Positions 39-29,373 of a DNA stretch of 35,461 nucleotides are shown here, one piece after another. Each line of letters begins with the position of its first letter. Positions within the stretch are counted from its first letter, which is position 1. The DNA is from an uncultured Butyrivibrio sp. Its GTDB lineage: Bacteria; Bacillota; Clostridia; Lachnospirales; Lachnospiraceae. The notes beneath the pieces are model-generated. The model worked only from the letters and a program-made list of their open reading frames with translations, was not told the DNA's origin and searched no databases. The stretch is from assembly GCA_946404845.1 (NCBI GenBank), contig CAMJFD010000005.1:1-35461 (forward strand), read 5' to 3'. Made by a program: the position numbers and the translations under genes.

Positions 39-2229
39 TTAAAAATTAATTCTATTAATATCGTCCTCTTTAAAAGTAACTACAAGATAATCATCAAAAA
101 TCCTATAATCATCAAACGCCTCATATCTGTCTTCAGAAAAAGAACTATACTGATCATCATAAACATTTATATCATAACAAATGATATCTGATGATCCCCT
201 TTGATGTACAAAAAATGCATTGTTTGAAGATAGCTTATTTAGATCGTTTGCAAAATACTTAACAAGATTGATCGTCTGTTTACCATTTTCATTTGATTTA
301 ATAATTCCTATCTGTCCATTACTTGTAAAAAAGTACATATTACTATTATTAGTTCCAGTTGCATTTATAAGAGGAACATTGAAATTATAGGTATTAAGCT
401 CAGATCCATCATTTATTGAATATACAGAAGCCTTATTGCCTGAATAGAAGACAATAGCAGGTACATCCTGACCATTTTCATCAGTATATGTTATATTCAG
501 CAAACCATTTTTTAGATTGACCTGATCTGTTTCAAAGTTACTTTGCCATATATATTCCTGAGATACGCAGTCAATATAATCAATTGTCATCTCATAATTG
601 GACAGTACCATAGTGTTATATATTCCATAACTTGCATCATCAACATTTGTACCATTAACGGCGATAAATGTATCATCTGTAACAAAAAAGACATCTGAAA
701 TATATCCATAGTCATTCTGACCTGTATAAAATTCTCCTGTTAAACAGGTCAGAATGACTATGGATAAATGTATCATCTGTAACAAAAAAGACATCTGAAA
801 TATATCCATAGTCATTCTGACCTGTATAAAATTCTCCTGTTAACAGATCACAACAACCTGTTCTATAAATATCTTCTTCGGTATCATAAGAATATATCAA
901 CTTAGATCCATCACTATTAACTTTTATAGATGAAACATGACTAATATAATCAGGGTAATCATATCTGTTTGTTATAGTTCCGTCACTACAATCAATAATG
1001 AAAATACCATTTCCTACTGTGGCAAGATACATTAAATTACCAACAATATCAGCATTTGGGCCGTAATATATAGAGTCAATTTCAGTTCCTTGGCTGGTCC
1101 ATATCTGAGATCCTGTAGAGCAGTCCATGCAATATATTACACTGTCTTCAATAACTATAAGATTATCATTTTCAGTAAAAGAAATATAATTAACTGATGT
1201 ATCTGCATGATCATCATAAACAAGCGAATTATCTTCCAGATTCCAAATATATAAGTTACTAGAGCTGTCATATGCAGCCAGATATTTTCTGTTAGGACTT
1301 ATAACATAATCACTTACAGTATCTGCACACTGATAATTCCATGTACTGTCAATTGTTGAACCATTTTCTGCAACATAAGCTCGTGTTGCCATAGTAAGAG
1401 CATACTCAGCTTCTGAAGTTACAGGCATATCTGGATCAGCCTCAGATGGGAGAGCAGCAAGTGCAAGCTGTATAGCTGTAATTCTCTGCTCATCTTCAAG
1501 AAGGCTTGTAGATTCAGTAGCGAGGAACTTCGCTTTATTTTTTAGAGCATCATAATAATTATCTCTTATGCGAATCGTACTCCATACAAGATAAGAGATT
1601 GCAATAGCAACTAATATAAAGGCTACAGACAAGATAGCCGCAAGCCTTTTTATCATATACTGTTTCTGGCGCTGAACAAGTTCATCATATGAACAGCCTA
1701 TAAGAGCAGCTGCAAGACGCGGAATCTCATCCTTTTTGCTCTTCTTGATGCCTTTTCTAAGATCACAAGATAAAGGCTCTATAGGAATTTGTTCGATATA
1801 TTCAACACCATTTATATCCTTACGTGTAACAGTATCTGTCAGTAGTACTTCAGGTATAACTTCCTGTGGTTCCCCATCAGCCAAAATAGTCAGAATCTGA
1901 CTCTTACTATGGCTTTTTAGGAAATATTCAATTTCTCTGGAAACCCATATAGATTCATTAGTATGAGTAGAACAAATAACTATAAGATACTCTGAATTTT
2001 CAAGAGCTTCTGAAATATCAGCATCAAGATTACTTGTTATAGGCAGCTCATTCTTATCTCTAAAAATGGGCGGTATATTCTTTAAACCTTTACTTTTCTG
2101 GATTTCTTTTGGAATATGATAATGCTCAAGCAGTTTCTGAACTTCTTCAGCCACATGTATATCCAGCTCAGCATGTCTATATGAAATAAATGCGCTATAA
2201 TGATCCGGCATTTCCCCTTGCTCCTCCAA
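39..2229 (-). pseudogene. TIR-domain protein with TM helix and C-terminal beta-propeller/WD40- or PQQ-like region; frame broken by a 100-bp duplication (ORF pieces 712-2229 and 39-815)
   Basis: N-terminus HYSAFISYRHAELDIHVAEEVQKLL...PPIFRDKNELPITSNLDADISEALENSEYLIVICSTHTNESIWVSREIEYF is TIR-like; TM segment RLAAILSVAFILVAIAISYLVW; downstream repeats such as YLAAYDSSSNLYIWNLEDNSLVYDDH. The two ORFs share the duplicated peptide QNDYGYISDVFFVTDDTFI and join in frame if 100 bp is removed. Confidence 0.85.
663..843. repeat. 81-bp direct duplication (663-743 and 763-843, offset exactly 100 bp) joined by a segment that is the inverted complement of 703-725
   Basis: gataaatgtatcatctg...attctcctgttaa occurs twice; 744-766 is the exact reverse complement of 703-725. 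Confidence 0.95.
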
Positions 2230-7315: not shown

Positions 7316-7480
7316 AAATCCGCACTAGCTGCGGATTTCGTGAAAAAGTGATTCAAGTGGCAAATAGGCCCTTCGACGAAGTCGATTTCAATTGGCCTAT
7401 TTGCATGACTTTTGGAACGAAGTGACAAAAAGTCATGTATTTTAAAAGGATGTATTTTTAATCAGAAAACATCCTTTTAT
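7316..7480. repeat. Four consecutive perfect-stem hairpins in intergenic DNA; the last resembles a terminator
   Basis: aaatccgca/tgcggattt (7316-7338), caaataggcc/ggcctatttg (7361-7403), catgactttt/aaaagtcatg (7404-7436), aaaaggatgt/acatcctttt (7444-7478). Confidence 0.9.
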
Positions 7481-7575: not shown

Positions 7576-7812
7576 ATGTCACTTAGTATGAAGCAAAAAG
7601 ATGTTGCAGTACGGCTTATGGCTGATGCGGTTATAACCGAAAAAGATGAAAATCACCTATTATGGCGACTGGAATCTTTTGAACAGAGCTTTGGAATGGA
7701 TATTCCCAATTGGGAATTAGATGTTCTCAGAATAGCGAGAACTAAAGGGGTAGATCCAAAGAATTTCCGTATCCTCGATAAATGGATTGGAAATCACAGT
7801 CTGGCTATGTAG
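7576..7812 (+). CDS. Small hypothetical protein (78 aa)
   Basis: ggaggag RBS 6 nt before ATG 7576; MSLSMKQKDVAVRLMADAVITEKDENHLLWRLESFEQ. Confidence 0.65.
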   Translation: MSLSMKQKDVAVRLMADAVITEKDENHLLWRLESFEQSFGMDIPNWELDVLRIARTKGVDPKNFRILDKWIGNHSLAM

Positions 7813-7850
7813 TAAATGTAATATTTAAAACTGAATATGTACCAAAAACA

Positions 7851-7880
7851 AGGGCTATGAATAAGTATTCACAGCCCTTT
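7851..7880. terminator. Bidirectional terminator between convergent genes
   Basis: agggctatgaataagtattcacagcccttttctttt. Confidence 0.75.
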
Positions 7881-7890
7881 TCTTTTTATA

Positions 7891-8565
7891 TTATTCTTCT
7901 GATTCACTTCCTAAAGGTATAAATTCTAATGTACCATCCATAGTTGCTGCAACATTTATTACAACATCTTTTTTTCTATTTTTCTTAGTATTCTTGGTAA
8001 AATCCATTGCTACAGCATCAACCATATATCCTTCTATAAGAGTATGTGCTTCTTCAATACTTAATAATGTACCATCGCCATCTGTAAATGTACTAGTACC
8101 ATTAGTATCAGTCACTACAATAGTCTGTACTTCCTTAAATGTATTTTTATTATATTCATAAATTACATAGGTAATAACAGTTGAATTATCTTTTTTAGAA
8201 CTCTGCTTAGACATAATGCATTTATTTGAAGATGAATAATAATAACTATCAACTGCATCTGAAGACTTATAAATCTTTTTATTTTTGCCCTTTTTATATA
8301 ATACAGTTGTAAGCTTTATAGAATCTGACTTATCAGTGTCACAGTACATTTCAGGAACACCATTGTTATCCAGATCCAGTATATAAAAACCATACGTCCT
8401 GTTAGAAGAAGATTTTTTTGCTGTCTTTGTAAGATATGACTTATAACTGGCAAGAGCTTTTGTCTGCTTATTAGAAGCTGCCTTTACTCCCACCCCTGGA
8501 ATCATAGAAAATGTAAATGCAGTAATTAATGCGATACTTGCTATCTTTTTAAATAGTCTCTTCAT
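7891..8565 (-). CDS. Secreted hypothetical protein
   Basis: Signal peptide MKRLFKKIASIALITAFTFSMIPGVGVKAA; FYILDLDNNGVPEMYC motif seen in secreted Firmicute proteins of unknown function. Confidence 0.75.
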   Translation of the reverse strand: MKRLFKKIASIALITAFTFSMIPGVGVKAASNKQTKALASYKSYLTKTAKKSSSNRTYGFYILDLDNNGVPEMYCDTDKSDSIKLTTVLYKKGKNKKIYKSSDAVDSYYYSSSNKCIMSKQSSKKDNSTVITYVIYEYNKNTFKEVQTIVVTDTNGTSTFTDGDGTLLSIEEAHTLIEGYMVDAVAMDFTKNTKKNRKKDVVINVAATMDGTLEFIPLGSESEE

Positions 8566-8769: not shown

Positions 8770-9120
8770 ATGAAATATATAGTTAATTCAGACAGAATAA
8801 CACTTATAGATGATGAGCAAAAAGAGCTTGCATATGTAGAATTTCCAGAATTTGAGGAAGGCAAAGTAGAGGTAACTCACACAGTAGTTGACAGTTCATT
8901 ACGCGGTAAAGGAATTGCCGGAACGCTTACACAAAAGCTTGCAGACCACCTTCGTAAAACTGGGCAAAAAGCCGAACTTACATGTTCTTATGCAATTAAA
9001 TGGTTTGCTGATCATAAGGAATATGCAGATGTCCTTATAGATTCAGCAGCTGAATTTGAAAAAGCAAAACACATGCAAAACGAAGCCTGCCAGATACCAA
9101 AGCATCCTAAAAAACAGTGA
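8770..9120 (+). CDS. Small GNAT-like N-acetyltransferase (YidJ/YjdJ type)
   Basis: MKYIVNSDRITLIDDEQKELAYVEFP...THTVVDSSLRGKGIAGTLTQKLADHLR...CSYAIKWFADH; aaggagg RBS. Start moved from 8689 to 8770. Confidence 0.85.
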   Translation: MKYIVNSDRITLIDDEQKELAYVEFPEFEEGKVEVTHTVVDSSLRGKGIAGTLTQKLADHLRKTGQKAELTCSYAIKWFADHKEYADVLIDSAAEFEKAKHMQNEACQIPKHPKKQ

Positions 9121-9144
9121 TAATTTCATAATCGGAGAAATATT

Positions 9145-24793: not shown

Positions 24794-26824
24794 TTATTTG
24801 AAAAATTCCATTTCTTTATTTAATTCTTCAGCAATCTCATTAAGGTCAGATGCAGCTCCTGCAAGAGTAGTAACTGTAGCTGACAATTCTTCCATAGAAG
24901 CACCAGTCTCTTCTGAGGATGCTGCATTTTCTTCTGAGATAGCTGAAAGAGCACTCATTGTATCTACTACAGCATTCTTAGAATTATCACATGTATTAGC
25001 ACCTTCAGTAATAAGCTGTACACCATCTACAGTTGACCTGATATCTTCTAACATACCATTTACTGATTGCAAAGTTTCTCCAAGAGCTATCTGCTGATCG
25101 CTGTTACCTTGACGTACGTCCTCAGCTGCTTTAACAGCAGCATTTGACTGTTGTAACAGAGTCTCCATTTCTGTTTTAATCTCATCAGCCATCTGTTTAG
25201 AATCTTCTGCCAATTTACCAATTTCTTCTGCAACAACAGCAAATCCTTTTCCTGCTTCACCTGCTCTGGCTGCTTCGATAGAAGCATTAAGAGATAGCAG
25301 ATTGGTCTGTGTAGCAATAGAAGTAATTCCTTCAACTTTATCACTAATATTATTGACCGCATTCTGAGTTGATCCAATAGTGCGGGATATCTCATCAATT
25401 TTTTCAGTCATTTCTGCTGACGAATCCTGAAGAGAAGCGAGAGATTTACTTGATATTTCAGAGGCCTCCTTCATCTTATTTGCAAGCTCAGAAAGGTTGT
25501 TAGTTGAGTTTTGAACATCACTTACTGCATCACCAATCTGTCCCACATTTTCAGAAGCGTTCTGTATCTCATCAGCCTGTTGTGTTGCTCCTGTAGCAAT
25601 TTCCTGAACGGCCGTTGATACATCATCAGCTGTTTGTGATATTTGTTTGGACATATCAGCGAGCTCTTCAGACGATGTTCCAACACTGGATGCTGACTCT
25701 TTAATCTTAGAAACAATGCTTCCAAGAGTTGTAATAACTGAATTAGTATTATCTATCATATGTCCAAATTCGTCTTTTCTGCCAATATTACTTGTAATAT
25801 TAGTGAAACGACCCTCGGATAGATCTGATAGAGATTTGTTGATATCTGTAATAGGACTTGTAAATGCTTTCGCCATAATAATTGAAATAATCACAGCAAT
25901 AATCAGCAAAATAACTCCAATGATTATAACTACAGCAGCAGATCTTTGAGCACTAGCCATTACAGTAGCTTTACTGAAGGATACTGCTACAGTATATCCA
26001 GAAATAGGTTCCCTTACATAAGCAAGATAAGATTTTCAATTATCAGAATGATTTACAACTTCATAAAAACCTGAAGAATCGTTGTTGGTCATGAATGCAT
26101 CACCTGCAACACTTTTTGGTTCGTCTTCAGCAGATATAGTAAACTGTGCATGAGCTGCTATAACAGCATCTCTATCAACTACAAATGCATCGTCTGCGTT
26201 TTCTGCCAGGAAATCGTGGACTGCTGATAAGGCATAGTTTCGCTGAACCAGACCTATTACATTATTATTATCATCATAGACTGGAACTATAATAGTCATA
26301 ATCATTTCCCCAGTAGATTTACTGGCCATGGCATTTGATATATATATCTGTCCTTGAATAGCAGTTTCGAAATCCTCACTTCCATTAGCATCGGCCAAAG
26401 TATTTCCATCTGTTCTAAGTAGCTGTTTACCTGCGCTGGAGGTTATAATTGTTACATTTCCATCGTCAAATATATCATTTATAGCTTCAAGCTGGACAAG
26501 CATATCCGCTTCTAATGAATCATTGCCACCTTCACTAAGATACATTTTAGTTGCAGGTGAACAGGCAAGAGTTTGCATTGAAGTTATATTGTTCTCTATA
26601 ATGGCTGAAAATTCTGATTCAATATAGTTAGCCTGCCATTGCAAATTTTCTTGTGCATCTGATTCCGCTTTACTTGTAGAAGAAATATAGCTGACCACAA
26701 GTGATACTATTAGTGGCACAGCTGCCGTAAGTAACATTGCTGCAACTAGCTTAGTCTTGATACTGTCAGTGAATTTAATAGAATTATTGTTTTTGTTTTT
26801 AACTTCTGTTTTCATAAATTCCAT
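24794..26824 (-). pseudogene. Methyl-accepting chemotaxis protein interrupted by one in-frame TGA (26036-26038)
   Basis: 262-aa TM + sensor ORF (26036-26824) and 388-aa HAMP + signalling ORF (24794-25960) are in the same frame; read-through gives ...[44 protein letters not shown]...; the second ORF has [42 protein letters not shown]. Confidence 0.9.
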
Positions 26825-26991: not shown

Positions 26992-27333
26992 AAGTCGTTC
27001 CTCAAGCTCTTTTGGCTCTTGAGGGACGACTTTTATTCTTATGGAATAAGTGCATTTTGGTAAAAATCGTTCTTATTTACTTATTTTTGCGAATGGGAAC
27101 GATTTTTATTTTTATTACATACGTGCATTAGAAAAAAATCGGTCCTCTTGGATATATTTGCTTAATAGGAACGACTTTTTTACACCTAGACCTATTACCC
27201 AAAATAAAAAGTCGTTCCTTTTCCTTATTTTCCCTGTTTGGGAACGATTTTTTACTAATATTACAAATGACATGTTTAATAAAATCGTTCCTAATTGCTT
27301 ATTTTTACTGATTGGAACGACAAAAATGAGACT
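26992..27333. repeat. Tandem stem-loop array 1: 5 units, period 72-73 bp
   Basis: Left arms (..TCGTTCC..) have tcg at 26995, 27067, 27139, 27212, 27285; right arms (..GGAACGA..) have cga at 27027, 27100, 27172, 27245, 27318. Confidence 0.9.
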
Positions 27334-27334
27334 C

Positions 27335-27762
27335 ACTCATTTTCTGATTATTGGGAAAGAAGTGAAAAAGCGAGGGTTATTAGTTACTCAATATTAAAAT
27401 ATAGAGAAAAAGAGTGAATAGCAGATTTTGGAAATTGCTCAAAATTGTAAATAAAGAAAATTGAGTTATTATAAATTAGACGTTCACCACTCATTTATAT
27501 GTAGAATGGAAAAAGAGTGAAAGGAAATAATAGTACGGAATACTCATTTATTTGATTTATGATAAAAAGAGTGAATTTGTGAAATTGTAGTATTACTCAA
27601 AATTTCTATATGTAAAAAATGAGTGATTCTCCAAAAATAAGATTCACTCATTTTGGGGTTACTAGGAAAAGGAGTGAAATATACATAAAGCTTGATATAC
27701 TCTGAATGTGATTTATAAAGAAAAAGAGAGTGAAGGCTTGTAAACTGCTTAACTAAAGCTCA
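27335..27762. repeat. Tandem stem-loop array 2: 8-9 units, period 51-53 bp
   Basis: Left arm ACTCA (or gctca/actct) at 27335, 27386, 27437, 27489, 27542, 27595, 27646, 27699, degenerate at 27758; right arm AGTGA about 26-28 nt later in most units. Confidence 0.85.
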
Positions 27763-27981
27763 TTATTTGATAAATAGAAATAATAGTGTAATTATTCAAA
27801 AATAAAAAAGTATACAAAAACCTTGTTCTTCCATAATTCAGAAAGTAATTGCGGCTATATCAATATCTACACTTCCTTTAACAGGATGTAATGTGTTTAT
27901 CTGCCCATTTACATAATCAATTGTACATATCCAATTATATTTTATATAATGAAAGAACAAAGAATGTCGCTATCGGCAGTC

Positions 27982-28212: not shown

Positions 28213-29373
28213 ATGTCAGAGAGTTCAACCAGTACCACAGCTCAGTCATCAGAAAAATTAGTTACAAATAATAGAAACCGCCTTATAATCCGCACTAGTA
28301 TACACATAATAATCGCAAACCTAATGCTGGCGTTAATGAAGGCTGTAATCGGACTTCTGACTAATTCAATAGCTATCGTACTCGATGCCATCAACAATTT
28401 TACAGATGCCGGATCTTCACTAATAACAATAATAGGAACCAAGCTTGCTTCTAAAAAGCCAGACAGAGAGCACCCTTGGGGACATGGCAGAATAGAATAT
28501 ATCAGTTCCATGATTATCGGCGCAATCATCACATCAGCAGGCCTTTCTTCTCTAATAGAATCTAGTCACAAGATACTTAGCCCACAGACACCTGATTACA
28601 ATATGACTTCACTCATAATCATTGGTATCTGCGTGCTAGTCAAGATTGTTCTGGGCCGATATGCTTCCCATATAGGTCAAAAATGTAACAGCGAAACCCT
28701 TATAAATTCTGGAAAAGATGCGCTTCTTGATGCTGTAATTTCTACATCAACACTGATTGCTGCTATCATTTTTATTTTTTACAACATATCACTCGAAGCC
28801 TACCTCGCTGCTATAATTTCCATCATTATCATCAAGGCCGGCTTTGACATGATCAGAAATACTATTTCTGAAATTCTTGGTGAACGAGTAAATCCAGAAA
28901 TCGCTCATAATGTCAAAAAAACTATTATGAGTTTCCCAGAAGTTCATGGCGTATATGACATGGTGTTCCATGATTATGGCCCAACCATGGTATTTGGATC
29001 AGTGCATATCCAGGTTGATGAAAATATGAGAGCTCCGGAAATCAGTGAACTCATAAGGCGCATATCTCTGGAAGTCTTTGAAGTACACCAGGTCGTAATC
29101 ACAGCCATCAGTATTTATTCTCTCAGCGCCTCTAACGAAAATGCAATTGAAATTCAAGAAACTGCGACAGAAATCGCCATGAGTCATGAACATGTTATTC
29201 AGATTCACGGTTTTTATATACTTAATAATGTAATTCAGTTCGACGTTATAGTCGATTTTGACGCACCTAATAGGCTTGAAATCTGCGACCAGATAGCAGA
29301 AGAAGTACATAAAAAGTACCCTGAATTTGCAGTACAGGCAATACTCGACGCCGACTATGGCTTTAGCGAATGA
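28213..29373 (+). CDS. Cation diffusion facilitator family transporter
   Basis: SIAIVLDAINNFTDAGSSLITIIGTKLASKKPDREHPWGHGRIEYIS; C-terminal cytoplasmic domain; RBS gggg upstream. Confidence 0.94.
   Translation: MSESSTSTTAQSSEKLVTNNRNRLIIRTSIHIIIANLMLALMKAVIGLLTNSIAIVLDAINNFTDAGSSLITIIGTKLASKKPDREHPWGHGRIEYISSMIIGAIITSAGLSSLIESSHKILSPQTPDYNMTSLIIIGICVLVKIVLGRYASHIGQKCNSETLINSGKDALLDAVISTSTLIAAIIFIFYNISLEAYLAAIISIIIIKAGFDMIRNTISEILGERVNPEIAHNVKKTIMSFPEVHGVYDMVFHDYGPTMVFGSVHIQVDENMRAPEISELIRRISLEVFEVHQVVITAISIYSLSASNENAIEIQETATEIAMSHEHVIQIHGFYILNNVIQFDVIVDFDAPNRLEICDQIAEEVHKKYPEFAVQAILDADYGFSE

Follow-up and report, generated by a model that had tools for sequence, protein, structure and literature searches.

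The window considered here is a stretch of 35,461 nucleotides from an uncultured Butyrivibrio sp. (contig CAMJFD010000005.1), taken from a draft genome of 263 contigs that is 82.6% complete. Between two divergent genes it holds two arrays of short inverted repeats, the second of which (array 2) had been described in an earlier note as a series of base-paired hairpins. The question raised by this locus is whether array 2 is indeed a set of hairpins or an element of another kind.

Array 2 and its surroundings

Array 2 (27333–27789) has eight good units, followed by a degenerate ninth, and the second, distinct array claimed in the earlier note is present. The unit consensus is a pair of 6-bp half-sites, TNACTC and GAGTNA, whose gap is almost always 22 bp (within the window mostly 22 bp, with an overall range of 21–25 bp). 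Unit 1 reads TCACTC-21-AAGTGA (27333–27365; the number gives the gap in bp), unit 2 TTACTC-22-GAGTGA (27384–27417), unit 3 TTGCTC-22-GAGTTA (27435–27468), unit 4 CCACTC-22-GAGTGA (27487–27520), unit 5 ATACTC-23-GAGTGA (27540–27574), unit 6 TTACTC-22-GAGTGA (27593–27626), unit 7 TCACTC-22-GAGTGA (27644–27677), unit 8, which is irregular, ATACTC-25-GAGTGA (27697–27733), and the degenerate unit 9 AAGCTC-22-TAGTGT (27756–27789). Consecutive starts are 51, 51, 52, 53, 53, 51 and 53 bp apart, followed by a last step of 59 bp, so that the step is 51–53 bp except at the end. The cores ACTC and GAGT alternate along the array with 22 bp on either side and a step of 52 bp. Units were found at the positions noted before, although the starts had been placed at the ACTC core and therefore 2 bp late; the arm separation of 26–28 nt fits a distance from centre to centre or from core to core, whereas the gap between the 6-nt arms is mostly 22 bp.

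Array 2 in the window is real and stands far above shuffled DNA. Exact core dyads of the form ACTC-(21–23)-GAGT were observed five times as compared with 0.011 expected (maximum of one in 5000 dinucleotide shuffles), and a periodic chain of five units was reached in 0 of 1000 dinucleotide shuffles; the equal periodicity in randomised sequence that, according to the earlier note, would have spoken against the array was therefore not found. Tandem Repeats Finder did not detect array 2 because the likeness of the units is limited to the arms. The location is non-coding, and the statement that the array is not a standard annotated feature was borne out, with no match for the arrays among 4227 Rfam families.

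Array 1 (26994–27321) belongs to the same class as array 2 and carries different arms. It contains five units of the form RTCGKTCC-22-GGAMCGAY (starts at 26994, 27066, 27138, 27211 and 27284; step 72–73 bp; family form GTCGKTCC-22-GGAMCGAC), with A-runs before the arms and T-runs after them. Both arrays sit between the 5′ ends of a gene for a dCache-domain sensor protein (26036–26824, minus strand) and of a gene for a CDF cation-efflux transporter (28213–29373, plus strand). Although the two arrays lie side by side here, as had been noted, their abutment is uncertain and should be held loosely: a segment of 55 bp at their border (27322–27376), with which array 2 begins, is identical to positions 1–55 of contig C25, where it comes after an agmatine-deiminase-like gene and not after array 1. 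Contig ends that overlap by a fixed word length suggest a branch of the assembly graph, which leaves array 2 with two possible left neighbours. Variation between strains, the presence of two copies or a choice made in assembly may lie behind them, and the agmatine-deiminase-like gene may be the left neighbour of array 2 in part of the population. Elsewhere in the window (663–850), an imperfect tandem duplication of 100 bp (97%) spans two overlapping minus-strand ORFs, and may be either a real repeat or an assembly artefact.

Arrays in the host genome and in congeners

A genome-wide search for the pattern, as had been proposed, placed the array-2 family at about six loci of the host genome, on contigs C5, C44, C123, C131, C201 and C247. 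Arrays of the array-1 type (73-bp step) were present on contigs C5, C31, C92, C178, C214 and C227. The gap was 22 bp in 25 of 34 units of the array-2 family and in 30 of 31 units of the array-1 family. Adjacent units are nearly identical in some arrays (C227, C31 and C214 here, and the congener array G334b). The genes beside the arrays are diverse (GH127, MATE, cytidylate-kinase-like, MCP, mraZ, SDR and others), with no gene family common to the neighbourhoods examined. Most arrays with visible flanks adjoin at least one 3′ gene end, unlike those in the window, and in many cases the array starts 20–200 bp past the stop codon. An exchange of arrays between contigs C247 and C92 was considered and rejected, the 52-bp border shared by them being a dispersed repeat instead.

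The claim that the period is close to an integral number of helical turns was upheld, and it extends to other arrays and species. The main steps (50–54, 62–64 and 72–74 bp, and one of 84 bp) correspond to 10.5–10.6 bp per turn with a phase near 0, and the classes of 52, 63, 73 and 84 bp to five, six, seven and eight turns, the integral-turn step expected of a phased array. Random sets of six fitted equally well with a p of about 0.0001 when these four classes were taken together with the 64 and 74 bp of the congener G374. Jumps of one turn occur inside single arrays (62 bp in C123, 63 bp in C201, 63-62-63 bp in C247, 84 bp in C92). Rare steps of 55, 59, 67 and 96 bp are off phase and count against phasing; since, in addition, the step classes were picked after being seen, the phase is strong support rather than proof.

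The arm sequences themselves were confined to the host in the searches made. The array-1 motif gave single chance matches, at the level of a reversed control, in 298 sampled genomes of the family; the array-1 pattern gave single matches in GTDB and IMG/VR, with no arrays in those re-examined; and models of both arrays found neither arm family in about 60 congeners, nor in G374 and G306, which are the two nearest. With a detector free of any assumption on the arm sequence (gap 10–44, step 30–150), which replaced an earlier, stricter version that had missed array 2, arrays of like kind whose arms are different were uncovered in five congeners: G309 (TCTGTG, CAACAA, and ACCAAGAT at two loci), G334 (GCTGTGA, and ATCTATGA at two loci), G312 (GAGTCA), G306 (GCAGAC) and G374 (TTATGACT). 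Their steps were 51–54 bp, except in the nearest congener, G374, where 64 and 74 bp alternate. The array of G374, at 7718–8448 of its sequence piece, has blocks of several units in both orientations, and inversions inside arrays were seen in this congener only. On contig C22 of G334, single terminator-like hairpins (GCTGTGATT..AATCACAGC) lie near an array with similar arms.

The same detector returned no arrays from shuffled sequence or from plasmids of B. proteoclasticus (150 kb) and, coding repeats apart, none from unrelated and viral DNA (0.95 Mb). Its matches in coding DNA are protein repeats, with steps that are mostly multiples of three. A coding repeat rich in His and Asp, probably of a metal-binding protein, was noticed on contig C15 of genome G000 (8941–9133 of its sequence piece). 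No description of such arrays was found in the literature searched.

Pairing of the arms and proposed binding of a protein

Details of the arms of array 2 given in the earlier note are borne out: the T.G pairs of units 2 and 6 are present, and both arms of unit 3 (TTGCTC/GAGTTA) are indeed changed. The latter, however, form one T.T mismatch and one G.T position, so that clean compensation is not the case. At the second arm position of the array-2 family, Watson-Crick pairs were counted in 10 of 34 units as compared with 13.4 expected, and the pair counts of the whole structure were not above those of shuffles (weakly above, and not significantly so, for array 1). Pooled over 10 families, covariation gave a z of −0.48 for Watson-Crick pairs and of 0.12 when G.U was included. 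When halves were swapped between units, the native (cis) halves were no better in pairing or folding energy in nine of the 10 families; in array 2, the swapped halves even paired slightly better than the native ones (p = 0.96). In array 2, the arms vary independently and the hairpin, as which the units had been presented in the earlier note, is the wrong reading.

Conservation between loci follows the arms. In the array-2 family, identity was 0.83 for the arms, 0.47 for the inner and 0.31 for the outer spacers; the values for the array-1 family were 0.88 (arms) and 0.38 and 0.39 (inner and outer spacers, respectively). Spacer identity of 0.31–0.47 resembles that of AT-rich random DNA, and the 22-bp gap and the step are nonetheless kept.

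It is unlikely that the arrays act as RNA, transcribed as tandem terminators or as structured 3′ ends, although many of them start shortly past a stop codon, which would suit such a role. The best case for this explanation is array 1, whose A- and T-runs resemble bidirectional terminators; in array 2 the arms are short, a GC-rich stem is missing and no T-run follows the arms, which does not correspond to an intrinsic terminator. Long stems in some gene-proximal units also favour RNA, as does the somewhat better folding of the inner sequences of several families relative to their shuffled versions. The latter is expected if the half-sites extend inward symmetrically, and alone does not exclude structure. 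One family, the congener array G309b, does show a cis preference (p between 0.003 and 0.013), which favours RNA and counts against the binding of protein to phased DNA sites. Against RNA, array 2, array 1 and most families show neither compensatory changes in the arms nor a cis preference, no Rfam family matches, and the arrays of the window lie between divergent genes. Moreover, an RNA would need neither a fixed gap of 22 bp nor steps of integral turns.

The preferred reading, with a probability of about 0.55, is that array 2 consists of helically phased, putative dyad-symmetric sites at which DNA is bound by protein. What can be seen in the sequence are dyads with kept half-sites, unconserved spacers, independent arms, a fixed gap of 22 bp and an integral-turn step, and the recurrence of this geometry with other half-sites in congeners. 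Each unit would offer a pair of inverted half-sites, about 28 bp apart, to a dimeric or two-headed DNA-binding protein; adjacent dimers would share one face of the helix, possibly with cooperative binding, and the stretch of nucleoprotein so formed may serve as an architectural element or an insulator in intergenic DNA, in most cases close behind the 3′ end of a gene. The different array families would then be bound by proteins of different specificity. That several specificities are needed for the several arm families of one genome counts against a phased array of protein sites, as do the fact that no candidate binding protein was found among the flanking genes of the examined arrays, the lack of a gene family common to their neighbourhoods, and the position of the window's arrays between two 5′ gene ends, which differs from that of most arrays. 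A half-turn insertion is predicted to disrupt such an array, and a full-turn insertion to be tolerated.

A wider proposal is made more tentatively, and we consider it possible rather than probable: the arrays might form a chromatin-like class of intergenic elements of this rumen genus that keep their geometry (an integral-turn step and dyads with a width of about 34 bp) while the half-site sequence is replaced between arrays and species, and that would be read by a fast-diversifying family of DNA-binding proteins or by a factor that recognises geometry more than sequence. The usual explanation of intergenic repeats in bacteria is that they are mobile hairpins or terminators. What is conserved in these arrays is the spacing on the helix, in several species with unrelated arms, which points to an undescribed DNA-binding system. 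Such a system possibly organises the chromosome, and its hosts are important fibre-degrading bacteria of the rumen.

Comparison with mobile repeats, recombination sites and known systems

Mobile hairpins of the REPIN or BIME kind, which a REP-associated Y1 transposase (RAYT) would move and which would have accumulated in ordered clusters, are about as improbable an origin of the arrays as RNA. The arms are inverted, dispersed, intergenic and genome-specific, the middles are variable, several families occur per genome, and ordered tandem clusters of REPINs are on record (PMC3116915). A Y1 transposase gene is present in the host genome and in four of the five congeners searched. The R1/R2 model matches, however, lie in array loci, and none was found on C11, the contig with the only Y1 gene found; near this gene lies a different dispersed element. 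In addition, the nearest congener has an array and no Y1 match (its genome is a draft). Neither copies beside a cognate RAYT nor mostly single or paired dispersed copies, both of which would characterise REPINs, were observed; the copies are in arrays. As to the different element, a dispersed hairpin (AAATAGGCCAATTGAAATCGACTTCGTCGAAGGGCCTATTTGCCACTTGAATCA...) was seen around 7340–7420 and on several contigs, one of its copies lying close to the gene for the Y1 transposase, and is a candidate for a true REP-like family.

Little credence is given to sites of a site-specific recombinase with the geometry of serine resolvase accessory sites, where a dimer sits on inverted motifs with phased neighbours. 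The two end motifs that are read by resolvase dimers, with a variable middle between them (PMC9943657), resemble the dyads of the arrays; next to one array lies a gene for a tyrosine recombinase, and the array blocks of G374 occur in both orientations. The other loci examined have no recombinase gene, the inverted blocks are restricted to one species, and no crossover site was recognised. Still less is given to a neutral, functionless minisatellite with arms alike through recent tandem duplication: the nearly identical adjacent units of some arrays would suit it, yet the spacers of array 2 in the window are unalike among units (identity 0.29–0.48) while arms and spacing are kept, and drift is not expected to produce one geometry with unrelated arms in several species.

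Several known systems share part of this architecture. The res sites of Tn3 and γδ resolvases likewise have two outer motifs and a variable middle, and the complex takes its geometry from the spacing and orientation of these motifs (PMC9943657); there, three sites lie beside the resolvase gene, whereas the arrays have 4–11 like units and no resolvase was found. REPINs and the ordered REPIN/BIME clusters of Pseudomonas and enterobacteria have in common with the arrays that they are intergenic and dispersed, with genome-specific inverted arms, a variable middle and ordered tandem clusters. The arrays differ in having arms of 6–11 bp that do not covary and an integral-turn step, and in being neither singles or doublets nor placed beside the Y1 gene found. 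Plasmid partition centromeres, such as sopC of F, are made of tandem units, each with an inverted repeat, and are bound by a dimeric protein. The arrays resemble them as tandem dyad sites for a dimeric protein, which is putative here, and differ in occupying many chromosomal loci and in having several arm families, unrelated to each other, in one genome; genes for partition (ParA/ParM or an adaptor) are absent beside the arrays examined. The BOX elements of Streptococcus pneumoniae are modular repeats between genes in which the number of middle units varies, again similar to the arrays in modularity and variable unit number. Their modules are conserved over the full length, whereas the arrays conserve only the arms and the spacing.
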